DNA from: Gammaproteobacteria bacterium
GTDB lineage: Bacteria > Gemmatimonadota > Gemmatimonadetes > Longimicrobiales > Gaopeijiaceae
Direction: 5' to 3'
Length of the DNA: 64,000 bases
Assembly: GCA_028821195.1 (NCBI GenBank)
Contig: JAPPHB010000138.1
Location: 1 to 64,000 of the forward strand
Shown here: piece by piece, positions 20,116-34,381 of the stretch
How positions within the stretch are numbered: the first letter of the stretch is position 1
Layout: each line of letters opens with the position of its first letter
Notes under the pieces: model-generated
Told to the model about the DNA's origin: nothing
What the model saw: the letters and a program-made list of their open reading frames with translations, nothing else
The model's database searches: none
Made by a program: the position numbers and the translations under genes

Positions 20116-21450
20116 TCATCCCTCTCCCGCCTGAATCTCCGCCGCGATGGCCTGCACTTCGTCGAGCACCCGGAGCAGGTTGCCGCTCCAGAGCATCCCG
20201 ATTTCCTCCTCGGAGTAGCCGCGCCGCACCAGTTCCAGGGTGACGTTGAAGGTCTCGGAGGCGTCGTCCCAGCCCTCCACGCCACCGCCCCCGTCGAAGT
20301 CGGAGCTGATGCCGACGTGCTCGAGGCCGATCAGGTCGACCAGGTAGTCGATGTGGTCGACGAAGTCGGAGACGTCGACGTCGGGTGCCGTTCCGGACTC
20401 GTCGACCCGCTCGGTGGCCTGGCGCCGCGCCATGGCCATGGCTTCGGCGTACGTGACCTGTTCCACCTGCGAACGCCGGGCCAGCTCGTCGTCATCCATG
20501 AGCTCGACGCCCATCTCTGCGGCGATCTCGCGTGCAAGCGCCCCTATGGCCTGCTGGCGCGTTTCGGCCTTATCGCGGTTGGTGAAGCGACGAAGCGCGA
20601 CGGTCTGCACCACACCCCCGTTCTCCCCCACGGCCAGAAGTTGCTCATCGTCGAGGTTTCGACTCACGTCGCTGAGCGCGCGGGCCGCCGAATGGGACGC
20701 CATCACGGGTGCGCGGGTCAGCTCGAGCGTCTGCATGATCGAGGGCTTGGAGGGATGCGAGATATCGATCATGATCCCGAGGCGGTTCATCTCCGCGATC
20801 GCCTCGCGTCCGATCTCACTCAGGCCGCCGTGCAGGAAGTTGCCGTCCTGCTCGCCGGAGTGCGCGTCCGATAACTGGCTCGGACCGGTGTGGGCGAGGG
20901 ACATGTAGCGGGCGCCGAGTGCATGGAACTGTTCGATGCGCGACAGGTCGAGACCGAGGGAATACGCGTTTTCGACGCCGATCATCGCCACCAGCTTTCC
21001 GGAGGCCGCGATGCGGCGCACGTCGTCCGAAGTCAGCGCCAGCTCGATGCGGTCCGGGGCGTATTCCTCCACCAGGCGATGGATCGAGTTGAACTTGTCC
21101 ATGGCGTTGTCGTAGGCGGCCGCGTACCCCTCGTCGTCGAGAGGGCCCTGTCCGGTGAAGACGACGAACCACGCCACGTCCAGCCCGCCCGCCTCCATCT
21201 TCGGCAGGGTGACCTGCGTCGGGAGGTCCATTATGTAGTTGCGCTCGGCGGTGAAGTTTGATGTGTTGATGTCAACGTGTGTGTCGAGCTTGGTCACGCG
21301 CTCGTGAATCGCGCTGGCTCGGGCGATCATCTCTTCCTCGGATTCGGCGGAGGCTGCGGAGGCGGGGTCGTCGCTGGTGCCGGTGCACGCGACGGTGGCG
21401 AGGGTGGCCAGGAGGGCGAGTCGGCGGGTGATGGATCGAGGGGTCGTCAT
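20116..21450 (-). CDS. membrane dipeptidase (M19), lipoprotein
   Basis: A 444-residue renal-dipeptidase-type zinc enzyme. The lipoprotein signal RRLALLATLATVAC ends at a lipobox Cys. The M19 barrel shows KLDTHVDINTSN (the metal motif is DTHVD, where DxHxD is typical), MIGVENAYSLG with the bridging Glu, MSLAHTGPSQLSD, IDISHPSK, ASHSAARAL and GISSDFDGGG. It would hydrolyse dipeptides, including D-residue-containing ones. The ATG at 21450 follows a good AAGGAG, whereas the longer frame to 21567 lacks signal features. Converges with the M28 gene. Confidence 0.88.
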   Translation of the reverse strand: MTTPRSITRRLALLATLATVACTGTSDDPASAASAESEEEMIARASAIHERVTKLDTHVDINTSNFTAERNYIMDLPTQVTLPKMEAGGLDVAWFVVFTGQGPLDDEGYAAAYDNAMDKFNSIHRLVEEYAPDRIELALTSDDVRRIAASGKLVAMIGVENAYSLGLDLSRIEQFHALGARYMSLAHTGPSQLSDAHSGEQDGNFLHGGLSEIGREAIAEMNRLGIMIDISHPSKPSIMQTLELTRAPVMASHSAARALSDVSRNLDDEQLLAVGENGGVVQTVALRRFTNRDKAETRQQAIGALAREIAAEMGVELMDDDELARRSQVEQVTYAEAMAMARRQATERVDESGTAPDVDVSDFVDHIDYLVDLIGLEHVGISSDFDGGGGVEGWDDASETFNVTLELVRRGYSEEEIGMLWSGNLLRVLDEVQAIAAEIQAGEG

Positions 21451-21608
21451 CGCAGAACTCCTTGGCGTCCGGAGGGGCGCGGCCGTGTCATGCCTCGGAG
21501 CCCCACGGGGGTCAGGGATGGCATGGGGTCCGCGGTTGGGCCGCGTGGGTTCAAGATAGGGTGGCACGGCCGTACCGCGAGAGAGTCGGACCCACCTGAC
21601 AGCGGCCG

Positions 21609-22637
21609 TCAGGGCAGACGCGTGATCTCGTCGGCCTCGAAGCGCGGCAGCTCCCGCCGCGACGACCCGCGGTCCAGCACGATCCCCTGCGCGGGCGGGA
21701 CGAACCGGCCGACGACTCGTCCGGGGATGCCAGCGTCCTCCAGGCGGTGCAGGAGGCCGTCCGTGCCGGCCTCCGAGCAGGCGACGAGGAGTGCTCCGGA
21801 GCCGATGGCGCCGAGGATGTCGAGGCCGTAGCGACGCATCAATCGCGCTGATTCGTCGAAGTGGGGGATCTTCGCCTCCTCGACGATCGCCCCGAGCCCC
21901 GCCGCCTCGACCATCTCTCGGATGGCCGTCGCTACGCCTCCTTCCGTCACGTCGTGCATCGCGTGGACGCCCGGCGCGCGCGCGGCGATGCGGGCTTCGG
22001 GTACCACGCTGATTCCGGGATCCCTCAGGAAGCGGGCCGACCGGGCCTGGAACTCCGGGCCGAATCTCCGGCTCACATCCTCCGCGAATTCGGTTGCGAT
22101 GATGGCGGTGGCCTCGATGGCGATGCCCTTGGTGATGACGAGCAGGTCGCCTTCGCGAGCCCCGCCGCTCGGCTTCACGTGCTCCGGGGTGGCCACCCCG
22201 ATCATGGCCCCGGCGACGACCTCGTGACGCACGGCGGCGGTGACTTCGGTGTGGCCACCGGCGGGGATCGCGCCGACTTCGCGGCAGCCCGTCCAGATGC
22301 CGTCGGCAATCCGTACGACCCGCGCCGCATCGGTCCCGGGGGGTACGAGAATCGAGGACAGGAACCAGCGGGGTTCTCCCCCGGTCGCGGCCACGTCGTT
22401 GGCGTTCACGATGACGGCGTGCCAGCCGGGGTCGGCGCTCGGGAAGGTGATCGGATCGGCCGCCAACACGATGCGCGGCTCGCTCCCGGCGGCGGCAACC
22501 GCGGCATCCTCGCCGGATGCGGGCCCCGGATCGAGACCGGCGCCACCGCCGAGCCGGCGCAGCACCTCGCGGAGCACGCGGGGTGGGATCTTTCCTTCAG
22601 GCAGGTGCTCCGAGCGGCGTGTGTCGGCGTCGCTCAT
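21609..22637 (-). CDS. AIR synthase-related (PurM/HypE/ThiL-like) protein
   Basis: A 342-residue protein of the PurM-like ATP-grasp-independent kinase/synthetase superfamily. AIRS N-domain features include GEDAAVAAAGSEPRIVLAADPITF and WHAVIVNANDVAATGGEPRWFL; C-domain features are HAMHDVTEGGVATAIREM and the Gly-rich GAIGSGALLVA. This layout is closest to HypE-like AIR-synthase-related proteins of unknown substrate; no other hydrogenase genes are nearby, so HypE itself is unlikely. The ATG overlaps the stop of the APC permease gene (ATGA). It ends a three-gene unit with a DDAH-like hydrolase and a permease. Confidence 0.75.
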   Translation of the reverse strand: MSDADTRRSEHLPEGKIPPRVLREVLRRLGGGAGLDPGPASGEDAAVAAAGSEPRIVLAADPITFPSADPGWHAVIVNANDVAATGGEPRWFLSSILVPPGTDAARVVRIADGIWTGCREVGAIPAGGHTEVTAAVRHEVVAGAMIGVATPEHVKPSGGAREGDLLVITKGIAIEATAIIATEFAEDVSRRFGPEFQARSARFLRDPGISVVPEARIAARAPGVHAMHDVTEGGVATAIREMVEAAGLGAIVEEAKIPHFDESARLMRRYGLDILGAIGSGALLVACSEAGTDGLLHRLEDAGIPGRVVGRFVPPAQGIVLDRGSSRRELPRFEADEITRLP

Positions 22638-23956
22638 GCCCCGCGGCGCCAGAGATAGTACACCGGCGCGCCCGCCGCGATGATGCCGAAGCTGAAGAGT
22701 GTCGAGCCGGGCGCGCCGACGAACGCGCTGATCAGCATCGCCATCGAGGCGAGAAGAAAGATCCAGGGGACCCAGGGATAGCCGAAGGTGCGGTAGGGCC
22801 GGGGGTGATCGGGCTTGAGCCTCCGCAGGCGGAAGACGCCCCAGACCACCAGGATGTAGAACGGCCAGAGTCCCAGGATGAAGACCTGGACCAGCTCGGC
22901 GAAGGTTCTGACCGAGACGTACCCCACCCCCAGCACCGTCACCAGCGCGATGGCCGCCGCCGGGGTTCCCCACCGAGCATGGATGCGCCCGACCGGCCGG
23001 AAGAAAAGGCCGTCCTCGGCGAGCGCGTAGAACACCCGCGGCCCGCCGAGCAGCGTGGCGTTGAGCGCCCCGAAGGTCGACACCACCACCAGTCCCGCCA
23101 CCAGGGACGCCCCCACCGGCCCGAAGATGCGGATCGCCGCGTCCGAGGCGACGTGCTCCGAGGCGGCCAGCTCCGCCACCGGCATGACCCACAGGTAGGA
23201 GGCGTTCACGAGGATGTAGACGGCCGCCACCACCAGCGAGCCGCCGATCAGGGCGCGGGGGAGGTTGCGCCCGGGGTCCTTGACCTCACCGGCCGCGTAG
23301 AGCAGCTCGCCCCACCCGTCGTACGCCCACAGCACGGCGATCAGCGCGACCCCCGCACCGCTCCATGAGGCGGGCGTGAAGCCGGGCGCGCCGGCGAGCG
23401 CCCCGGTGCTCCCGTCGCCGAACAGGAAGATCGCGAGCGACAGGCCCACGATGGCGAGCACCTTCGCCCATGTGGTCACGTTCTGGACGGCCGCGCCCCA
23501 GAGCACCGAGCGGGCGTTGGTGGCGCCCAGCACGACGATGGCGAGGGCGGCGACGACGCGCACGCCGGCCTCGGTGAGGGGAAAGAGCGCGTCCACGTAG
23601 GCCGCGAAGATGAGCGCGATGCCGCCCAGCACGGCCGGTTGGATGAGCAGCAGCCGCGTCCATCCGAAGACGAACGCCGGCATGGGACCGTACGCCTCGC
23701 GCAGGTACACGTAGGTGCCGCCGGAGCGGGGGAACATGACCGCCAGTTCGGACATGCTGAGGGCGGCGCAGACGGTGATGGCAGAGCCGAGCAGCCAGAG
23801 CAGCGTGATCGCGCCCACCGAACCGGCTTCGCGGGCGATCTCGGCGGGCACCCCGAAGATGCCGCTGCCGATGATGGCTCCGACCAGGATCGCGCCCGCG
23901 CTCCAGACCCCGAGCTGGCGCTTGAGGGTGGCGGGTTGAGGCGACCCGTCCGTCAC
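22634..23956 (-). CDS. APC superfamily amino-acid permease
   Basis: A 440-residue transporter with about 12 helices. The first-helix signature VGAIIGSGIFGVPAEIA is the substrate-binding GSGIFG unwound segment of APC/LAT-type permeases. SELAVMFPRSGGTYVYLREAYG and YDGWGELLYAAGEVKDPGRNLPRALI are further family motifs. The substrate is probably an amino acid or amine. The GTG at 23956 overlaps the stop of the upstream DDAH-like gene (GTGA), and its own stop overlaps the ATG of the AIRS-like gene. Confidence 0.88.
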   Translation of the reverse strand: MTDGSPQPATLKRQLGVWSAGAILVGAIIGSGIFGVPAEIAREAGSVGAITLLWLLGSAITVCAALSMSELAVMFPRSGGTYVYLREAYGPMPAFVFGWTRLLLIQPAVLGGIALIFAAYVDALFPLTEAGVRVVAALAIVVLGATNARSVLWGAAVQNVTTWAKVLAIVGLSLAIFLFGDGSTGALAGAPGFTPASWSGAGVALIAVLWAYDGWGELLYAAGEVKDPGRNLPRALIGGSLVVAAVYILVNASYLWVMPVAELAASEHVASDAAIRIFGPVGASLVAGLVVVSTFGALNATLLGGPRVFYALAEDGLFFRPVGRIHARWGTPAAAIALVTVLGVGYVSVRTFAELVQVFILGLWPFYILVVWGVFRLRRLKPDHPRPYRTFGYPWVPWIFLLASMAMLISAFVGAPGSTLFSFGIIAAGAPVYYLWRRGA

Positions 23957-24933
23957 CCCGCGACCCGCTCCCGCGTGACCACCCCGCTCAGACACCCGAT
24001 CCCGCCGGCGCACTTGTGGATCTCTCCCAGCTCCACGGTGACGCACTCCATTCCCGCGTCCTCGTAGGCCGCCTGCAGGATGGGGCAGCCCTCCGGCATC
24101 AGTATCCGCCGTGGTCCCAAAGTCACGAAATTGTGCCCGAAACCGCGCACCATCTCGTGGTCGTCGGGAAAGAAGCGCACCTGGTAGCCGTGCTTGCGGA
24201 GCGCCTCCAGCGCCGTCCACGGAATCCGGCCGGGACGGCCGAAGGCCAGGTCGCGGTCGGCGAAGCGGACCTCGCCCATCAGGTGCATGGAGGTGTGCGG
24301 CAGGTCCACCACCAGCGTCTCGACGCCGATCTCCGCCAGGGTTGCCGCCACCTGCGCCGCGCCCTCGCCGTTGGTGCGCAGGCCCCGCCCGATCATCGCC
24401 GCGCCCGGCGACAGCCAGCAAAGGTCGGCCCCTTCGAAGGTGCCCGTGCCGCCCACGCTGCGCAGGATCGGCACTCCGCAGTCGGCCAGCCGGCGAGCGA
24501 TCCAGCGCTCCTCGCCCGCCCGCACGGTCGATGCCGGACGCCCCACGATGGCCCCCGAGGGCGTCATCACGAACAGGTCGGCGCAGAACATCTGGTTGGG
24601 GGGCGCGCTGCCCGGATCCACGTACACGACCTGCACGCCGTTCGCCCGGTAGGCATCCGCCATGGCATCGTGCTGCGCGCCGCACAGCGCGGCGTCCGGG
24701 GCCTCCAGCATGAGGTGCTCGTCGGCGTCTTCGACCTCGAAGAGCTCCGCACCCGGGCGATGCAGCAACACCGCCTGCAGGGTCGCGTACTCGCTGTCGA
24801 TGCCGCACCGGGACCACACCGACCCCAACTCATCGGCGAGGGAGGCTTCACGGGCGGGCCAGCTCGGGCCCCCGTAGGCGGCGGCGTGGGCGGGTGGGCG
24901 GACGGCGGTGCTCTGGTCCATGGGCTCCAACAT
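23953..24933 (-). CDS. dimethylarginine dimethylaminohydrolase / amidinotransferase family protein
   Basis: A 326-residue pentein-fold protein. YATLQAVLLHRPG near the start, MFCADLFVMTPSGAIVG, GTFEGADLCWLSPG, TSMHLMGEVRFADRD (catalytic His) and the C-terminal KCAGGIGCLSG (nucleophilic Cys) match the DDAH/arginine-deiminase-related group. It likely hydrolyses a guanidino compound such as arginine or methylarginine; transfer instead of hydrolysis cannot be excluded. Starts at 24933 or 24921 are possible, the second behind TGGAG. The permease and AIRS-like genes that follow overlap by 4 bases each, suggesting uptake and breakdown of one guanidino substrate. Confidence 0.8.
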   Translation of the reverse strand: MLEPMDQSTAVRPPAHAAAYGGPSWPAREASLADELGSVWSRCGIDSEYATLQAVLLHRPGAELFEVEDADEHLMLEAPDAALCGAQHDAMADAYRANGVQVVYVDPGSAPPNQMFCADLFVMTPSGAIVGRPASTVRAGEERWIARRLADCGVPILRSVGGTGTFEGADLCWLSPGAAMIGRGLRTNGEGAAQVAATLAEIGVETLVVDLPHTSMHLMGEVRFADRDLAFGRPGRIPWTALEALRKHGYQVRFFPDDHEMVRGFGHNFVTLGPRRILMPEGCPILQAAYEDAGMECVTVELGEIHKCAGGIGCLSGVVTRERVAG

Positions 24934-25044: not shown

Positions 25045-25872
25045 TCAGTCCCGCGCGCCCTCCAACGGCCACACCACGCGAAACCCTATGTCCTCCGACT
25101 CGAAGCCCGAGCGCAGGTACCTGACGCGGTCCGCGGCACGAAGGGCGAACGGCGGGGAGAGAAACGAGCCGCCCCGCAACCTGCGCGAGTCATCATTCAC
25201 GGGCGTTCGCCCCGGATCGAACCAGATGGGCGTTACCCACTCCGCCACGTTGCCCGCCAGGTCGTAGATGCCTTCCGGCGTTGCGCCCTCCCGCCGGGCC
25301 ATCACCTCGATCGGGCCCCTCGGGTCGCAGGAGCCGTAGTGCACCCGGTCGCACGCAGGCTCCGAGTTGCCCCACGGGTACTTCCGTCTCTCGGAGCCTC
25401 TCGCCGCAAACTCCCACTGTGCTTCGGTTGGCAGACTTCCACCAACGGAGATGGCGTAGGCCATGGCTTCCCGCCAGGTGACATTGACGACCGGATGGCG
25501 CTCCTCCCCGCTCGAGAACGCGTGCCCCGCGTCGAATCGCCGATACTCCTCGTTCGTTACCTCGTGCTCCTGCATCCAGAAGCTCCGGACCGTGCGCGGA
25601 CGCGGATACTCGTCCCGTTTCGAGTACGGACTGCCCGGCGCGACGATCGTGTCCCAGTCGTCGCTGCCGCTTATGAATGTGCCGCCCTCGATCAGAATCG
25701 CCCGGTTCAGCGGGTCGACGACACCGGGCCCCGAAGGCGGACGGGTGGCGACATCGCCGTGACCGTCGTTGAAGAAGCCCATCCACCGCACCAGTGCATA
25801 CCCGCAGATGAGAATCACGCCGGCCAGCACCGTCATCCTGAGCGACACGGATCCCCCGGGTGCGAACCTCAT
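25045..25872 (-). CDS. SUMF1/formylglycine-generating-enzyme-like protein lacking catalytic Cys
   Basis: A 275-residue protein with an N-terminal membrane anchor (about residues 10-30) and a SUMF1/FGE fold from about 55: GGTFISGSDDWD, FWMQEHEVTNEEYRRF, HPVVNVTWREAMAYA, LPTEAQWEFAARG, YPWGN, DLAGNVAEWV, RRLRGGSF and DIGFRVVWP. Genuine sulfatase-modifying enzymes have a Cys pair between GGSF and GFR. Here that stretch has no Cys, so the protein is probably a non-catalytic member, as are many bacterial FGE-sulfatase-domain proteins. The ATG at 25872 shares one base with the stop of the upstream STN protein (TGATG), placing it last in the sigma/FecR/TonB operon. Confidence 0.8.
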   Translation of the reverse strand: MRFAPGGSVSLRMTVLAGVILICGYALVRWMGFFNDGHGDVATRPPSGPGVVDPLNRAILIEGGTFISGSDDWDTIVAPGSPYSKRDEYPRPRTVRSFWMQEHEVTNEEYRRFDAGHAFSSGEERHPVVNVTWREAMAYAISVGGSLPTEAQWEFAARGSERRKYPWGNSEPACDRVHYGSCDPRGPIEVMARREGATPEGIYDLAGNVAEWVTPIWFDPGRTPVNDDSRRLRGGSFLSPPFALRAADRVRYLRSGFESEDIGFRVVWPLEGARD

Positions 25873-28634
25873 CAGAACGGCGCCGTCGTACGAAAATGCC
25901 ATTGCCACGCGGGCTCATGTGCCCAGTCAACGCCCGCCCGCGGCCTCCCGGGGACCCGGGTTCCGTGCGGGTACCACCAGGGCGCAAGCGGCCGTGCCAC
26001 ATCCACGCGCAGAAAGCCGTTGAACACCGACACGCCAAGCCCCGCGGACTGCAGGCTTCCGCCGTCCACCCTCGCCCAGTCGTGGAAGACCGAGAGGGCA
26101 ACCAGGCTGACCTTGCGCTGCAGCTCGATCCGGCTCCTCCAGACCTGTCTTCCCCTCAGCACGGTCTGGGGATAGCCGCGCAGCCAGTCACCGGAACTCC
26201 CCAGCCTCCAGATCTCTTCCGGAGCGGGGTCTCCAGCGACGCGCGCGCCACCGGCCTCGAGCGCCATCGACAGGTCGGCCGGCAGGGGCAGGACCAGCAT
26301 GCCCGTGACCGACAGGCGGACGTTGGGATAGTCGCCGACCAGTCCCCGCAGCGATATGTCGGCGCCGCCGTTCACCCTGCGTCCGGTGAGGCCGCCCCAC
26401 CAGGGCCTCCAGAACAGATCGACTCCGTGACGCCTGCGCGCGTCGCCGTCCAGCGTGGTGTTCGTCTCGGAGAACAGGCTCAGCGAGGTCCAGGATCGGT
26501 CGCTCCTCGGAGGGAGCAGGTGGATGGCGGCTCCCCGGACCACGTAGTAGTCGGAAGGATCGGCGACGTAGGCCCAGCGCGGCGAACGCTGCGAGGTGAC
26601 GGTTCCTCCCGACTCCCGAAGCGAATGGTAGAGCGAGAATCGCACGCGACGACCGGTCCGGCCGTATTCCGCGGCCAGATCGATGCTGGGTTCGTGCCGC
26701 CGCGTTCCCGTCCGCACCGTCAGCGCGCCCCGTCCCCACGAGAAATCGCGGATCAGCCGGCTGCCCACCGACAGACCCTCTATCGGATTGTAGCGCATGA
26801 GCCTCGGGGTGAGTACCGGCGCTTCGAAATACCATTGGCGGATGTCCGGATCCGTCCCGGCGCCTTCCAGGTCCCCGGCACCGGGGGCCATGCCGATGGA
26901 ATCCAGGACTTCGCCGGCCTCGTCGACCATGCTCCCATACAGTCCGTCTTCGCGATCCTCCCAGATTGATGGAGGCAGATGGGCGCTTGCGCCGAGCGCC
27001 CGCCAGTCGCGCCCCACGATCACCACGGTCCCCGAGTCGGGTTGCGAACCGTCCTTTACCACGACCGTGTCTCCCTCCTCGCGCCAGGACTCGACCAACT
27101 CCGCGGTCGCCCGCGCGGGATCCGGTGGATCCGCGGCGCCCGTTGAGACTTGCTCGATGTCGAACTCCCAGTCGTGAAACCCCCGCACCGTGACCCTATC
27201 GGAGTCCTCGGCATCCCATTGGTCTCCGCTGGTGATGTAATGTGCAAAAGTCGCGCGCCTCGGAAGCCAGTAGCGGAGGTTCCACATGGAATAGTCGACA
27301 ACCGCTACCGCCACGCCGATTTCCAGCCCTGGGCCCATTGCCGCGTTGAGACCGTAGTTCAATATCCGGCCGAACAATCCCGGACGGGGCGGGGAAGGCA
27401 CCTCGACATCGCCCAGCGCGGTGCCGCGATATACCTCTTCGATGTCCAGCAGGGAGCCGCTCCCGCGGCGAAAACTCAACTCGGAATCGATGGGCTTGGC
27501 GGGGCGGTAGGCGGTCCGCACCACCCCGGAGGTCTCCGGGTCGATCCACAGCACTGCGAAGACCAGCCCGAGGTGTTGGGCGCGGGGGTGCGCGGTCACG
27601 CTCACCGCCTGTACGGAACGTCCCGCGAAGTGCACCGAAATCGTGTCTCCCGAGCGGAACCGGTAGAAGCGCTCCGCGCCCTCGTCGAGCGGGGTCACCG
27701 TGGGTACGAACCACGACTCGGCGGCGCGTGGACCCAGGCCGGAAACGATGAACAGGCTGAACGGATCGCGGGCCGGATCGGCGGCAAACCGTGCCGCAAG
27801 CCCTTCGGGCCGGCCGGACTTGAAGCGCTGCCCACCGACTTCCATGCGGGATCCCAGCACCCGCAGAACCGTGGGCTCGTTCCTCGACCAGCGAACGCGG
27901 GTGGCCGACTCCCGCCGCACGATGGGCCGGTCGCGAACCAGCATCGAAAATTCGAAGGAATTGCGCTCCCTGACGACGGCCGTATAGGACGCGATGTCCG
28001 ACAAGGCCGCCTCGCGGGCGGCGCGCGCACCCACGATCAGCCGGCGGGCGGTCTCGTCGAGGTAGGCGTCCGAGGCGGCTGCCTCTTCCGGCGCCGGGGC
28101 AGCGGTCGGCTCATCCGCGGCCGCGACCGCGACCCCCGCTCCCCTCAGGCCACCGAGGGTAGCATCCATGGGCAGCACATCCCGCGGGGCCCGGGGCACG
28201 ATGATGACCTGGGATCCCAGCTCCACGTAGCCCAGGTCGGTGCGGGCAAGCAGCTCGTCGAGCGTGCGCGCAACGTTCTTTGTTGCGCAGTCGCAGTCGA
28301 CGACGCGGTCCGGCGGGAGAAGGCTGGGGCTGAAGGCGATCTGCACCCGTGAATGCTCCGCGAGTCGGACGAGGGCTTCGGCGAGCGGCAGTTGCTCGAT
28401 GGAGAGCCGGGCGGTGGTGGCGAGGAGGCTGCCGGGCTCGGGGTCGACGCCGATTTCGCCCGTGAGGCGCGCCACGTCGTGAGTGTCCTGCGCAACGAGC
28501 CCCGGGGGAGAGGCTCCCGCGAGCCAGGCGGCGAGCAGCATCGGCGCGAACTGGACCCCGCATCGCATCAGCGCGCCCCCGCCATGCATCAGGCGACTGC
28601 CCCCGCCGCGCATCACCCTGCCCCCGCCGCGCAT
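25872..28634 (-). CDS. STN-domain outer-membrane protein with DUF5686-like barrel
   Basis: A 920-residue exported protein. Residues 1-50 form a long signal region with repeated M-R/H-GGG units, then MLLAAWLAGASPPGLVAQ. An STN (secretin/TonB short N-terminal) domain at about 60-140 is nearly the same as that of the TonB receptor upstream in the operon. From about 175 the sequence (AREAALSDIASYTAVVRERNSF; VDYSMWNLRYWLPR) resembles DUF5686-type proteins, followed by a beta-strand-rich C-terminus ending in Phe, as in outer-membrane barrels. No TonB plug is visible. The start overlaps the DUF4249 stop and the stop overlaps the SUMF1 start, both TGATG. It may be a second signal-receiving partner of the FecR encoded in this operon. 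Confidence 0.7.
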   Translation of the reverse strand: MRGGGRVMRGGGSRLMHGGGALMRCGVQFAPMLLAAWLAGASPPGLVAQDTHDVARLTGEIGVDPEPGSLLATTARLSIEQLPLAEALVRLAEHSRVQIAFSPSLLPPDRVVDCDCATKNVARTLDELLARTDLGYVELGSQVIIVPRAPRDVLPMDATLGGLRGAGVAVAAADEPTAAPAPEEAAASDAYLDETARRLIVGARAAREAALSDIASYTAVVRERNSFEFSMLVRDRPIVRRESATRVRWSRNEPTVLRVLGSRMEVGGQRFKSGRPEGLAARFAADPARDPFSLFIVSGLGPRAAESWFVPTVTPLDEGAERFYRFRSGDTISVHFAGRSVQAVSVTAHPRAQHLGLVFAVLWIDPETSGVVRTAYRPAKPIDSELSFRRGSGSLLDIEEVYRGTALGDVEVPSPPRPGLFGRILNYGLNAAMGPGLEIGVAVAVVDYSMWNLRYWLPRRATFAHYITSGDQWDAEDSDRVTVRGFHDWEFDIEQVSTGAADPPDPARATAELVESWREEGDTVVVKDGSQPDSGTVVIVGRDWRALGASAHLPPSIWEDREDGLYGSMVDEAGEVLDSIGMAPGAGDLEGAGTDPDIRQWYFEAPVLTPRLMRYNPIEGLSVGSRLIRDFSWGRGALTVRTGTRRHEPSIDLAAEYGRTGRRVRFSLYHSLRESGGTVTSQRSPRWAYVADPSDYYVVRGAAIHLLPPRSDRSWTSLSLFSETNTTLDGDARRRHGVDLFWRPWWGGLTGRRVNGGADISLRGLVGDYPNVRLSVTGMLVLPLPADLSMALEAGGARVAGDPAPEEIWRLGSSGDWLRGYPQTVLRGRQVWRSRIELQRKVSLVALSVFHDWARVDGGSLQSAGLGVSVFNGFLRVDVARPLAPWWYPHGTRVPGRPRAGVDWAHEPAWQWHFRTTAPF

Positions 28635-29701
28635 CAGCCCGCCACTCCCGACCCGCACAGGGGCACGTCCCCCGCCCCTTCCGCCGCGCGCGACTCCACC
28701 TCGACCTTCCAGCGCACCGAAGTTCCGAACATCCCGGTGCCGTCGCCGAAAACCGAGGGAACCACGGTCTCGCCGTTGATGTTCAGCCGGCCCTCCCGGA
28801 TCCAGTTGGCCCAGTTGCGGTCCAGGGCCGCGATGGTGACCTCGGCGCGTGCGCCGCCGGGAAGCCCCGCGTCCAGCGTGCGATGCAGCTCCACGTTGTC
28901 GACGTCGGACAGCAACTCGAGCAGGAAGTCCCCGGGGAAGACCATGTCGGTCACGTCGCGTCCCCGGCCGAGCACGGTGACCGGCAGGTACAGTGGATCC
29001 GACGACGACCAGAGGCTCGGGCTCAGGCCGGTGATCTCCGCCTCGCCGACATGGGCCCAGGCGCCGTCGACGGGGGCCCACGCGAAGCGATAGCCGGAGC
29101 CGGGCTCCACCCGGCAGCGTCCGTCCTCGACCGAGAGACCCTGCGGTACGAACGCGTCGGGCATGCGGCTGGTCCCCTTCAACACGGCGCCGTCCGGCGT
29201 CGTCACGGCGAGGGTGAGCACTTCGCCGGGCGCGAATACCGCGGACGGCGCAGCGGCGGTATGGCAGGAACCGACTGTGCCCAGGGGCCCGTCCTCCCCA
29301 TACAGATCCTCGGGCAGCACCGTGCACGCCCCCAACGGATCCTCTTCCGCCGCAAGCGACAGGGAGCGCCCGGACGCGCCGGTTATGCGCCCGGCAGCGC
29401 CCGGCACTTCCGTCAGCAGTTGCTGATACGCCTCGCTGACCACCACGACCGCCCGGGTGTCGATCCGAGAGGGCTCGGCAGGGTCGATGGTGAGCACGAC
29501 CGTGGCCAGGACGACCAGCGTCTTCTGTCCCGAACCCGTCGGGACGTCGGTCACGTCGCAGCCAGCAGCACCGACCATCATCCCCAGCAGCGTCAGCAGG
29601 AGACGTATCCCGGCAGGGCCCATCCGGGACCGCTCGGTCCGCATCCGCGACCGCGGGAGTGCCGCCCGGCCCGCATCGTGATCCCGCGCCCCGGCGCCCA
29701 T
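28634..29701 (-). CDS. DUF4249-like lipoprotein partner of the TonB receptor
   Basis: A 355-residue protein. A basic N-terminal extension leads into the lipoprotein signal RLLLTLLGMMVGAAGC. The body has the DUF4249 layout: early VVLTIDPAEPSRIDTRAVVVVSEAY, a central LAVTTPDGAVLKGTSRMPD and a C-terminal MFGTSVRWKVEVES. DUF4249 lipoproteins are generally found next to TonB-dependent receptors and are thought to act at the outer membrane in capture or signalling. The ATG shares one base with the receptor stop (TGATG) and its stop does the same with the next gene, so translation is tightly coupled. The true start may be at an internal Met closer to the signal. Confidence 0.72.
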   Translation of the reverse strand: MGAGARDHDAGRAALPRSRMRTERSRMGPAGIRLLLTLLGMMVGAAGCDVTDVPTGSGQKTLVVLATVVLTIDPAEPSRIDTRAVVVVSEAYQQLLTEVPGAAGRITGASGRSLSLAAEEDPLGACTVLPEDLYGEDGPLGTVGSCHTAAAPSAVFAPGEVLTLAVTTPDGAVLKGTSRMPDAFVPQGLSVEDGRCRVEPGSGYRFAWAPVDGAWAHVGEAEITGLSPSLWSSSDPLYLPVTVLGRGRDVTDMVFPGDFLLELLSDVDNVELHRTLDAGLPGGARAEVTIAALDRNWANWIREGRLNINGETVVPSVFGDGTGMFGTSVRWKVEVESRAAEGAGDVPLCGSGVAG

Positions 29702-32520
29702 CAGAACGACACCTCCACGCCGAGGGTGGGCAGGATCGGGAGCATGTGGTTATCCAGGGCCGTCAGGTTCCCCCGGTTGTAGTGGCGCTGACGCCACAAC
29801 ACGTTGTTGCGGTTGTAGAGGTTGATCACGCTCACGTAGGGCGACAGGGTGCCCCAGCCCCTTTGCAGCGTCTTGCGCAAACTGACGTCCAGCCGGTGGT
29901 AGGCGGGAAGCCGGGCCCCGTTTCTGGGTCCGAGCAGCGCGGTCCTGACGCTCGCATAGTCATAGCGGAGGTCGGTCAGCCGCTGCTCGTACTTGCGGAA
30001 TCTCGCCAGTTGGGCCGTGTAGGGCGTGCCCGTGCCCAGGTTCCAGCGCAGGCCGGCCTCCACGCCCCAGGGCAGATCGCGCTGGATGGCCACGTCGATC
30101 TCGAGGCGCCGGTCGAAGATCGGCGGGAATTCGATGATCGGCGGGGGCAGCAGGCCCGAATCCGTGTCCACGAACGACCGCGTGGCTTTCAGAAACGATA
30201 CGGACACCCACCCTCGCGTCCTTCCCGCGTCCTTGCGCAGCAGGGCGTCGATCCCGATGGAGCGGCCGTCGCCCGTCAGCAGATCGTCCGCCGGATCCGT
30301 CGGATCGTCGGCCCAGTTCTGCGCGATCACGCCGTCGAAGGTGCGCAGGTATCCCTCCGCGGACGCGAACCACTCGCGGTCGCTGCCGAAGAAGCCCTCC
30401 ACGCCCGCCTGGACCTGGTCGGAGATCACGGCCGGCACGTGTTCGCCCGACAGCACCCACGCGTCCATGCCGATCGGCAGCCGCTCGTCGCGCAGCGAGT
30501 GCAGGAACTGCGTCTGGCGTCCTCCGGCCACGCGCACCGCCCAGCGGCCGCCGCCCAGGAAACGCTTGACGGCGACGCGCGGCGACGGCACGGCTTCGGC
30601 CGGGCCCGCCCGCGGGCTCCAGCCGTCCCATCGGAGCCCGGCCTCGAGCAGCCACGGGCGGCTCGGGGTCCAGGCCAACTGCGTGTACGCGCTCGACTCC
30701 CAGCCGCTGCTCTCGCTGTTCTGGAAGTTCGGGGGAACGCCCTCGGACACATTGCGGCTTTCCCGGTGGGCGGCCGCGACTCCCGACTTCCATCGCATGC
30801 GCGACGTAGGACGGAGTTCCAGATCGGCCCCGAGCGAAGACTGGCCGATCTCCGTCTCGATCCGCGTGTCTTCGTATTCCGTGAAGTTGAAGCGGGCTCC
30901 GAAGCGGGAGTATGCGCCGTGGACCTCGAGCGTCCCCCCTCCCGGCATGAGATGGGTCCAGGATGCCCCGACCGCGTCGTTGCCCCAGGGCCAGCGGACG
31001 TTCCAGCCCGGGTCCTGATCGTCGCCGAGATCATCCACAACGGACTCCATGCTCGTGAACAGGAATTCGAGCTCCCGCAGATTGATCCTGTCCCGGCCCG
31101 AGTACGCGTTGATGCGCACCCGATCGCCCCCCTTCGTCCACCCCTCGAAGACGGCCTGGAGGTCCGCGAGGGAGTAGGGGAATGCGGAGTCGGTCAGCCT
31201 GGTCACCAGGTCCCAGTAGCTGCGGCGCACCGACACCTTCCAGCGCGAGGCGGCGAGCCCCAGGCCGTCCCGGATCCCGGGCGCGAGGCCGCCCCGCACC
31301 GCCACGCGCGACGAGATCAGGCCGAGGCCGGCGTCGACGCCCAGGGTGCCGTCCCCCACGTCGGATTCCACGAGCAGCACCGACGATGTCCGTCCTCCGA
31401 ACTCCGCGGGAAAGCCTCCGGACCGGAGCTCGGCGCGCTCGACCATGTCCGGATTGAAGACCGAGAATATCCCCATCAGATGGTAGGGATGAAACAGCGG
31501 CACGCGGTCCATCAGGAACAGGTTCTGATCGCCCGAACCGCCCCGCACGTTCAGGACGGCGGTGAAATCGGACACCCGGGTGACGCCGGGGAGGATGCTC
31601 ACGGCCCGGACCGGATCCGGCTCCGCCAGCCCCGGCAGGTTTCTGAGCTCCTCCCCGCTCAGTTCCTGAACCGTGATGCCCGCCGATTCCTCGAAGCGCG
31701 CCCGCTGGCGGCTGCGCCGGGCCTCGACGACCACGGGATCCAGCTCGATCGCCTCCTCCGCGAGCGAGATCTCAAGCTCGAGGTCCGTGTCCGGCGCCAG
31801 CTCGATCACCTCATCGTGGAGGGCGTAGCCGATGCGCCCGATGGTCAGGCGGTAGCGGCCGGCCATGAGGTCGCGGAAGGCGAAGAAGCCGAGGGCGTCG
31901 GTGCCGGTCACGCTCTCGACGGTGGAGTCCGCCGCCAGCCTGAGGCGGGCGGTCGCGCTGGCTACCGGGACCTCGACCTCGGAGCGCACCCGGCCGCTGA
32001 GGGTCGCATCCAGGGGCAACGCTGCCCGTGCCGCCCGGGGCACGATGATGACCTGGGCGCCCAGTTCCACGTACCCCAGCTCCGTGCCGTCGAGCAGCCG
32101 GTCCAGGGTGCGCGCAACGTTCCGTGTTGCGCAGGCGCAGTCGACGACGCGGTCCGGCGGGAGGAGGCTGGGGCTGAAGGCGATCTGGATCCGGGAACTC
32201 TGCGCGAGCTGGACCAGGGCTTCGGACAGAGGCATCCGGTCGATGGAGAGGCGGGCGGCGGCGGCGAGCAGGGTTCCGGGCTCGGGATCGACTCCGATCT
32301 CGCCCCTGAGTGCGGTCAGCTCGGTGTCCTGGGCGGTGGCGGATGCGGGGATGAGGATGACGGCGGCGATCAGGATGAGCACGGCCGCGATCGATGCGAA
32401 GGTGGTCCGGCGGATCCCGCACTCGCACGGAGTCGCGCAGGCCCCGCCGATCCAGGTGCCGATGAGCCGATGCCTCATGGAAGTCCGGGACGCCCTCAGG
32501 CGATTCCGTACCGGAATCAT
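29701..32520 (-). CDS. TonB-dependent receptor with STN signalling domain
   Basis: A 939-residue FecA-like transducer. After a long signal region (to about 64, ending ASATAQ) come an STN domain (about 80-145), a carboxypeptidase-regulatory-like domain (about 155-235), a plug (SAGITVQELSGEELRNLPGL; VLNVRGGSGDQNLFLMDRVPLFHPYHL; GGFPAEFGGRTSSVLLVE) and a barrel ending with Phe. The STN domain of such receptors contacts FecR in the periplasm when ligand is bound. The ligand is unknown. The ATG at 32520 overlaps the fecR-like stop (ATGA). Directly downstream is its DUF4249 partner. Confidence 0.88.
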   Translation of the reverse strand: MIPVRNRLRASRTSMRHRLIGTWIGGACATPCECGIRRTTFASIAAVLILIAAVILIPASATAQDTELTALRGEIGVDPEPGTLLAAAARLSIDRMPLSEALVQLAQSSRIQIAFSPSLLPPDRVVDCACATRNVARTLDRLLDGTELGYVELGAQVIIVPRAARAALPLDATLSGRVRSEVEVPVASATARLRLAADSTVESVTGTDALGFFAFRDLMAGRYRLTIGRIGYALHDEVIELAPDTDLELEISLAEEAIELDPVVVEARRSRQRARFEESAGITVQELSGEELRNLPGLAEPDPVRAVSILPGVTRVSDFTAVLNVRGGSGDQNLFLMDRVPLFHPYHLMGIFSVFNPDMVERAELRSGGFPAEFGGRTSSVLLVESDVGDGTLGVDAGLGLISSRVAVRGGLAPGIRDGLGLAASRWKVSVRRSYWDLVTRLTDSAFPYSLADLQAVFEGWTKGGDRVRINAYSGRDRINLRELEFLFTSMESVVDDLGDDQDPGWNVRWPWGNDAVGASWTHLMPGGGTLEVHGAYSRFGARFNFTEYEDTRIETEIGQSSLGADLELRPTSRMRWKSGVAAAHRESRNVSEGVPPNFQNSESSGWESSAYTQLAWTPSRPWLLEAGLRWDGWSPRAGPAEAVPSPRVAVKRFLGGGRWAVRVAGGRQTQFLHSLRDERLPIGMDAWVLSGEHVPAVISDQVQAGVEGFFGSDREWFASAEGYLRTFDGVIAQNWADDPTDPADDLLTGDGRSIGIDALLRKDAGRTRGWVSVSFLKATRSFVDTDSGLLPPPIIEFPPIFDRRLEIDVAIQRDLPWGVEAGLRWNLGTGTPYTAQLARFRKYEQRLTDLRYDYASVRTALLGPRNGARLPAYHRLDVSLRKTLQRGWGTLSPYVSVINLYNRNNVLWRQRHYNRGNLTALDNHMLPILPTLGVEVSF

Positions 32521-33536
32521 CGACCCTCGTCCGCGTCGCGCACCCGCATCCGAACCCTTCCCTCGCCGATGCTGCACCGGGCGTCGATGACGTTGCAGAT
32601 GACGGTCATGACCTCGTCCAGCGATTTCGACGTGAACCACATGGTCAGCGTCCGCTCCAGCAGGACGGCATCCTCGACCGCTACTTCCGCGCCGTATCGT
32701 TGCTCGACCTCCCGAATGGCGAGGGCCAACGGCGTGTCCTGGAAGATGATGAAGCCCTCCAGCCACGCGGCCGCCTCCTCGATCGGGGGCGCGGCGGTAA
32801 CGGGGCCGGGGCGGCCTTCGATGATGCTCGCCGCCTGCCCGGCGCCGACCTGGACTTCCTCGGTCGCGGTTCCGAGCGCGACGGTTCCTTCGACGACGAC
32901 CAATCGGAGCTCGTCGAGCTGGGCGGTCAGATGAAAGCGCGTTCCGAGGACGCGCGCGGTGCCCGCCGCGGTGGTGACCCGGAACGGCTGTGCCGGATTG
33001 CTGGCGATGGAGAAGAACGCCTCGCCCTCGAGGACGACGGCCCGGGCGGATCCGTCCACGTTACGCATCCGGCTGCCCGGACCCAGGCGGATCACGCTGC
33101 CGTCACCCAGGCGGACCATCGCGGTCTCGCCGGGCGCCGTGATGAACTCCTGGGACGCCAGACTGCCCCCGCCGGTGCCGCTCGCGGCCGGTTCCCGCGC
33201 GTCCCAGATGACCAGAGCCGCCGCCGCGAAGACGCCCGCGGTGGCCCAGCCCGCGAACAGGCCGAATCGGGAGCGCGCGGGTCGTCTGCGCGCCCGGTCG
33301 TCTGCGCGCCGGATGGCGGCGGCTCTCCGGGCTTCCGCCTCGCGGACCACCAGGTCGGTGGCGGGCGGGGCGCCGGGCTCGACCTCCAGATCGGCCGCGC
33401 TCGCGGCTTCCACCAGCAGCCGGAGGTCGTTCACTTCCTCCTGGGCCTCCGGGGTCTCGCGGAGCCATGCCTCGACCGACCGGTTTTCGTCGGCGGTCGT
33501 CCGGCCGCGCAGATACTGTAGAAACAGTTCGTCCAT
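32517..33536 (-). CDS. FecR-family anti-sigma regulator
   Basis: A 339-residue single-pass membrane regulator. The cytoplasmic part (1-95) begins MDELFLQYLRGRTTADE, a typical ECF anti-sigma N-terminus. One helix is near 98-118 (GLFAGWATAGVFAAAALVIW). The periplasmic FecR domain (about 130-240) shows FITAPGETAMVRLGDGSVIRLGPGS and GEAFFSIASNPAQPFRVTTAAGTARVLGTRF. A C-terminal STN-like/DUF4974 domain (about 265-335) has IIFQDTPLALAIREVEQRYG. It should relay receptor occupancy to the sigma factor encoded just upstream. The ATG at 33536 follows AAGGA; the longer frame to 33635 does not fit the family. Confidence 0.88.
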   Translation of the reverse strand: MDELFLQYLRGRTTADENRSVEAWLRETPEAQEEVNDLRLLVEAASAADLEVEPGAPPATDLVVREAEARRAAAIRRADDRARRRPARSRFGLFAGWATAGVFAAAALVIWDAREPAASGTGGGSLASQEFITAPGETAMVRLGDGSVIRLGPGSRMRNVDGSARAVVLEGEAFFSIASNPAQPFRVTTAAGTARVLGTRFHLTAQLDELRLVVVEGTVALGTATEEVQVGAGQAASIIEGRPGPVTAAPPIEEAAAWLEGFIIFQDTPLALAIREVEQRYGAEVAVEDAVLLERTLTMWFTSKSLDEVMTVICNVIDARCSIGEGRVRMRVRDADEGR

Positions 33537-33638
33537 CTCTCTCGATCCTTCCGGGGTTCCCACCGGGAACCGTTGTCCTACACCCGAAGAGCGCACGGCG
33601 CGCCGCCGGCTACTATTGGAACGAGGCACGAGCATGTC

Positions 33639-34223
33639 TCAGCCATCGGCCGCCACCGCCCGGCGAACCGTCCTGAGCGCGGTCGACATCTGGTTCGCCA
33701 CGGTCTGCGCCGAAACGTTCATCACGGCGGCCGCCTCCGCGTGGGAAAGTCCCCGCTGGAACACGAGCTCGAACACTTCGCGCCGGCGGTCCGGCAGCGA
33801 CGCCACGGCGGCCCGGAACCTGTCGGCCAACAGCCTGGCGTCGAGCACGTCGGCGGGGGTCGCGGCCTGTCCGCCCCGTATCGCATCGTCCCGCCCCTGC
33901 CGGTCCTGCCAGCGCCGCCGCACCGCGCGCCTGCGTTTCTCGTCGATGACCAGGTGACGGACGATGCGGTACAGGTAGACCCGCGCGGAGCCTCGCGGAC
34001 GCCATCCGCGCCGCCGTTCCCAGACCTGGATGAAGGCCTCCTGGGCCATGTCGCGCGCCAGGTCGACATCGCCCACCTGACTCGCCGCATAGCGCACCAG
34101 CTCGGGCCAGCACAAGTCCATCAACCGGCCCAGAGCGGGCTCGGATCCCCCGCGGATCTCGTCCATCAGCGACGTCAGGACGTCGTTGTGCGCCGAATCC
34201 GGGTTGGGGCTGGTTACTGACAT
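33639..34223 (-). CDS. ECF RNA polymerase sigma factor (FecI-type)
   Basis: A 194-residue sigma-70 family protein with region 2 (LMDLCWPELVRYAASQVGDVDLARDMAQEAFIQVWERR) and region 4 (LASLPDRRREVFELVFQRGLSHAEAAAVMNVS...). It lacks regions 1 and 3, as usual for ECF factors. It likely directs transcription of the FecR-receptor operon, which starts 102 bases downstream, so that interval may contain a sigma-dependent promoter. The start at 34223 is preferred over 34286 because the extra residues are Arg/Cys-rich and unlike the family. It is divergent from the D-aminoacylase-like gene. Confidence 0.88.
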   Translation of the reverse strand: MSVTSPNPDSAHNDVLTSLMDEIRGGSEPALGRLMDLCWPELVRYAASQVGDVDLARDMAQEAFIQVWERRRGWRPRGSARVYLYRIVRHLVIDEKRRRAVRRRWQDRQGRDDAIRGGQAATPADVLDARLLADRFRAAVASLPDRRREVFELVFQRGLSHAEAAAVMNVSAQTVANQMSTALRTVRRAVAADG

Positions 34224-34381
34224 CTGGTGTTGAATAGTGTCGACTTTGGGTCGGCCACGCTGGCGACTCCTGCAGTAGTAGCGCACGGCGCAGCCATGTC
34301 TACTACAACGTGCCGGTCTGGCTGGCTCCGCGCCCGTTCTCTACGATGTCCGGGTCACGCAATCGAGCCGGAGGCCATCCG

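Follow-up and report, generated by a model that had tools for sequence, protein, structure and literature searches.

In the Fec, Pup, Fpv and Fox systems, an ECF sigma factor, a FecR protein with an STN-like C-terminus and a TonB receptor with an N-terminal STN signaling domain are encoded in one row. PupB contacts PupR through helix 1 and strand 2 (PMC7186176), and overproduced signaling domains inhibit signaling and protect the anti-sigma factor (PMC11637429). In the VreA-VreI-VreR (PUMA3) system of Pseudomonas aeruginosa, the 23 kDa VreA protein takes the place of the receptor and carries an STN but no barrel (PMC2729926).

The locus described here lies in a 64,000-nucleotide stretch of DNA (the window) from a sponge- and marine-associated genus of Gemmatimonadota. 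Similarly to Fec, Pup, Fpv and Fox, and as expected of a FecIRA-type locus, it encodes an ECF sigma factor, a FecR protein with FecR and FecR_C domains, and a TonB receptor with an N-terminal STN. It differs from them in that a second, non-TonB outer-membrane protein bears a copied STN, and genes for a lipoprotein and an FGE-fold protein are added. VreA is the nearest precedent for an STN on a barrel other than a TonB receptor, since it too places the domain on a protein other than a TonB receptor adjoining an ECF sigma factor and regulator (PMC2729926); here, however, the ordinary receptor remains and the STN belongs to a large outer-membrane protein. We favor, with some reserve, the reading that this is a FecI-FecR-FecA-type operon whose receptor STN was copied onto a DUF5686-like protein, both STN domains being likely to dock on FecR. 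No account of such an STN fusion, and no mention of DUF5686, was found in the literature searched, nor was a direct case of several receptors sharing one anti-sigma factor.

The gene row and its products

An initial reading of the DNA without database searches (the sequence-only reading) had described a row of sigma, fecR, TonB receptor, DUF4249, second STN and SUMF1 genes in which every junction from fecR on overlaps. Gene calls, Pfam and profile-profile comparison bore out the genes (Table 1), and the junctions were confirmed. A gap of 102 nt separates sigma from fecR; fecR and the receptor gene then share an ATGA overlap, also kept in the relatives read, and TGATG overlaps follow at the receptor/DUF4249-like, DUF4249-like/STN-DUF5686-like and STN-DUF5686-like/FGE-domain junctions.

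Table 1. Features of the gene row and its flanks, in window positions
Feature	Position	Strand	Remarks
Dyad GTAGTAG-N19-CTACTAC	34274..34306	(-)	upstream of sigma; sole copy in genome
Whole gene row	34223-25045	(-)	six genes
ECF sigma factor, 194 aa	33639..34223	(-)	Pfam Sigma70_r2, r4_2 and ECF above cut-off
FecR-type anti-sigma/sigma regulator, 339 aa	32517..33536	(-)	PF04773 and PF16344 above cut-off
TonB-dependent receptor, 939 aa	29701..32520	(-)	Pfam CarboxypepD_reg, Plug and barrel above cut-off; STN weak
STN signaling domain 1 (TonB receptor)	32011..32295	(-)	
DUF4249-like outer-membrane lipoprotein, 355 aa	28634..29701	(-)	profile-profile comparison
STN + DUF5686-like outer-membrane protein, <=920 aa	25872..28634	(-)	Pfam: STN only (weak)
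STN signaling domain 2, copy of STN 1	28167..28451	(-)	74/95 aa identical
DUF5686-like body of second STN protein	25872..28076	(-)	C-terminal residue Phe
FGE/SUMF1-fold protein, 275 aa, N-terminal membrane anchor	25045..25872	(-)	PF03781, E 7.8e-37
Arginine-deiminase-like gene	23953..24933	(-)	111 nt downstream of operon

At its start, the second STN gene has four copies of a short G-rich GATGC.GGCGGGGGC-type repeat (28550-28640), one of which supplies the TGATG overlap. Because each copy carries its own ATG and the leader varies among relatives, the start of this gene is uncertain, and the real one may be a later ATG at about 28568. In one relative (L009), the overlap falls on the repeat copy immediately before the signal peptide.

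Pfam found neither a plug nor a TonB barrel in the second STN protein and, without a plug, its identification as a TonB receptor was rejected. Profile-profile comparison aligned its body with Gemmatimonadota members of DUF5686 over 386 columns (95.9%, E 5.6e-9), a distant, profile-level similarity with no PF18939 (DUF5686) match above the Pfam cut-off; the protein differs from that family by its N-terminal STN and by lying below Pfam detection. A distant family member of the body also matches Omp85. A PDB profile search with the body returned chance matches only, and an AlphaFold model of the whole protein, built with 8 close relatives, reached a mean pLDDT of only 25.7. The lipoprotein likewise had no PF14054 match above the Pfam cut-off and aligned by hhalign with Gemmatimonadota DUF4249 members (84%, E 7.6e-6) over only 151 columns. 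DUF5686-like and DUF4249-like would thus be fair names rather than memberships.

The catalytic cysteine pair of formylglycine-generating enzymes (FGE) sits in the C-terminal GGS region. The last protein of the row matched PorK/GldK, SUMF1/2 and FGE in the PDB and has the FGE-sulfatase fold in common with PorK/GldK and the enzymes, but its translation has no Cys after RLRGGSF, where the active pair would lie, and an active FGE enzyme was rejected for want of a Cys pair in this region. It also differs from both groups in having a single-pass anchor. The protein is probably accessory, with a structural role in the manner of PorK/GldK; no type 9 secretion genes were seen within the operon.

No support was found for the suggested complex in which the SUMF1-like and DUF5686-like proteins would be present at a fixed ratio. 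In the window, a simple gene call showed overlapping junctions in 8 of 30 same-strand neighbor pairs, among them the neighboring permease and arginine-deiminase-like genes; overlap by itself is therefore weak evidence, and was rejected as proof of one complex. A complex held at fixed ratio by coupling is further disfavored because the coupling to the FGE-fold gene is lost in three relatives, with a gap of about 130 nt in L008 and a junction opened by about 1 kb and an inserted gene in L004 and L009. The gene found between the STN/DUF5686-like and FGE-fold genes in the latter two (L004:3004-3639, L009:12953-13570) encodes a probable outer-membrane protein of 205-211 aa.

Origin, retention and distribution of the second STN

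Within each genome, STN 1 and STN 2 share 71-80 of 95 residues. Their DNA identity is 0.78-0.87 in the domain, against 0.33-0.38 in the 20 codons upstream and 0.57-0.70 after the domain; these ranges include a value of 0.83 in the domain against 0.38 upstream. In a tree of 59 STN sequences, both STN sets of the genus formed a single clade (support 98/95), separate from all sister-genus receptor STNs, and the receptor STNs of the genus formed their own clade (97/90) within it. STN 2 sits between the signal peptide and the DUF5686-like body, and in paralogues of this body from the same genus, at 62-64% identity, the signal peptide runs straight into the body. The tree, the higher DNA identity within the domain and the STN-less paralogues demonstrate, at the level of sequence comparison, that the receptor STN was copied within the operon and inserted behind the signal peptide of the body protein in the genus ancestor. 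The dN/dS of STN 2 (0.08-0.32) is near that of the body, and the flanking linker gave 0.27-1.13. Such substitution rates show that purifying selection maintains STN 2 as a distinct domain attached by a flexible linker.

Both STN domains score 16-17 bits against a Pfam cut-off of 28.4. An AF2 model of STN 2 (core pLDDT 80-88) was confirmed by Foldseek as an STN fold, with PupB (bound to PupR) first, followed by the FpvA and FecA signaling domains, all at probability 1.00 and none reaching E 0.001. Receptor signaling domains ranked above most secretin N0 domains, with some secretin domains close behind.

The sequence-only reading had proposed a search for this neighborhood in other Gemmatimonadota, and the order was indeed found within the genus, the fusion in none of the other genomes of the family. 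The full order of sigma, fecR, STN receptor, DUF4249-like, STN/DUF5686-like and FGE genes was found again in six contigs (L003, L005, L007, L009, L010 and L051); three more (L004, L006 and L008) show its end, and the FGE gene follows in all genus contigs read. Since the order recurs in every same-genus contig that spans the row, it is not due to chance. The fusion itself was detected in 10 of 11 genus genomes, the eleventh being 67% complete, and a joined STN/DUF5686-like match in 0 of 110 other genomes of the family. The relatives read were largely MAGs, the in-depth search covered Gemmatimonadota, and a GTDB-wide pattern scan had a reach of close relatives only. The body alone is widespread across Gemmatimonadota, and in about 30 other loci around the best body matches it lacks an STN and does not adjoin fecR.

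In the sister genus, the standard layout is sigma, fecR, STN receptor and DUF4249-like gene; the last adjoins the STN receptor in most of its loci and is the usual partner gene of STN receptors in the family. Several sister-genus genomes have two to five STN receptors per single FecR, with tandem receptors behind fecR in L128, L130, L134 and L135. These loci resemble the present one in combining a single FecR with two to five STN proteins, but their full-length STN proteins are TonB receptors, whereas the second STN here is on a non-TonB barrel. STN proteins at FecR loci of other families that were missed by the receptor profile also proved to be TonB receptors on inspection. A single FecR with several STN partners is thus an established habit of the family; what is new is that an STN sits on a non-TonB barrel. 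The description of the locus as unlike the simple FecIRA layout was right but incomplete, as the sister genus already has the DUF4249-like gene and tandem STN receptors.

Two further features of the sister-genus operons were seen. The third STN in L135 (11060-11650) is on a 196-aa frame without a barrel, and may represent a receptor that has been truncated or else a stand-alone STN protein. Lipoprotein-like proteins of 253-254 aa with no Pfam match are encoded between the tandem STN receptors of L130 (11872-12636) and L135 (6722-7483), where they occupy the place of the DUF4249-like gene.

FecR and its possible STN partners

The host assembly is a MAG of 140 contigs, 99.6% complete with a recorded contamination of 5.9%. 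It contains one FecR/FecR_C match, as do seven other sampled genomes of the genus, and two signaling-type STN domains, both in the operon; a third Pfam STN match is a secretin, and the Pfam STN search found no other signaling-type STN. Good, if indirect, support for the proposal that one FecR may receive input from two outer-membrane proteins comes from this inventory, from the descent of STN 2 as a selected copy of the receptor STN and from the conservation of the order in the genus. Judged from these sequence data, the cell's sole FecR probably has two different outer-membrane partners; a shared operon does not in itself prove contact between STN 2 and FecR.

The FecR protein matched the PupR periplasmic domain (6ovk_R in the PDB) at E 4.5e-6. 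The strand aligned to the mapped PupB-PupR interface, QIAFSPSLLP, is identical in STN 1 and STN 2, and the end of helix 1 near that interface differs between them (QSS vs EHS). The alignment score is weak, and conservation of this strand is family-wide and may reflect the fold instead of contact with FecR; its identity would therefore count as support and not as proof.

A different arrangement would have STN 1 or the FGE-fold protein as the partner of STN 2, thereby joining the barrel to the receptor complex and leaving signaling to FecR to the receptor alone. Work cited in PMC11637429 indicates that one STN domain can associate with another; within the genus, the genes for receptor, lipoprotein, barrel and FGE-fold protein stay together. 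However, the STN 2 model is nearest to signaling domains that bind anti-sigma factors, and its PupR-facing strand is unchanged, and we regard such a pairing as unlikely, though by no means negligible. It is improbable that each STN feeds a different anti-sigma factor, with one partner encoded elsewhere or not FecR-like: the single FecR/FecR_C match comes from a nearly complete genome and recurs in the seven others, and neither STN groups in the tree with a receptor from beyond the operon's own lineage, although the search covered FecR-like domains only and the assembly is fragmented.

Very little probability attaches to STN 2 as a decaying, functionless by-product of a recent duplication. The genus is known from MAGs and is of limited depth, and one frame break was seen inside STN 2 (L006/G280), near a contig end; against this, frames are intact in 9 genomes and the dN/dS of the domain is close to that of the body, so that a relic is largely refuted by selection.

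The most likely docking site for both STN domains is the STN-like C-terminal domain of the single FecR. The receptor and the DUF4249-like lipoprotein would import a putative ligand, and the second barrel, in which no plug was detected, is for that reason unlikely to answer a ligand via TonB in the usual way. In our view, the second barrel most likely either acts as a co-expressed brake or buffer on sigma, by holding or protecting FecR, or reports its own assembly state. The brake idea is in keeping with the inhibition and protection described for overproduced signaling domains (PMC11637429); a plug-less STN barrel in one operon with the receptor would fit such a protector role. As a reporter, it may instead signal its own assembly or the state of a partner. 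More tentatively, and with less than even confidence, FecR could integrate transport and envelope status, with a ligand-gated TonB receptor on one side and a plug-less DUF5686/Omp85-like barrel on the other whose grafted STN sets the threshold of FecR or reports the state of the barrel.

The locus shows how a signaling domain of a TonB receptor came, within a single operon, to another kind of outer-membrane protein, and it ties a poorly known DUF5686-like outer-membrane family to a regulatory circuit. A genome with a single FecR and two STN domains would also provide a natural test of the current question of whether contact with an STN is activating or protective for the anti-sigma factor, as a second STN without ligand gating should be a protector only.

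The flanking region

The dyad lies between sigma and a divergent amidohydrolase gene. It is found upstream of sigma in most genus members, including L009 despite its different flanks; no copy turned up in L139 or the cut L005. The predicted RNA fold of the sigma leader was no better than that of shuffled sequences (z -0.66), and for this reason the dyad is taken as a DNA site, possibly an operator or promoter.

Behind the operon, arginine-deiminase-like, amino-acid permease, AIR-synthase-like and M19 dipeptidase genes (20116-24933) stay downstream in most relatives. The arginine-deiminase-like gene is found behind the operon in most genus contigs and not in L009, which is without both it and the downstream amino-acid permease gene. 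Because of the flanking amidohydrolase, dipeptidase, amino-acid permease and arginine-deiminase-like genes, our guess is that the imported substrate would be peptides or amino acids.
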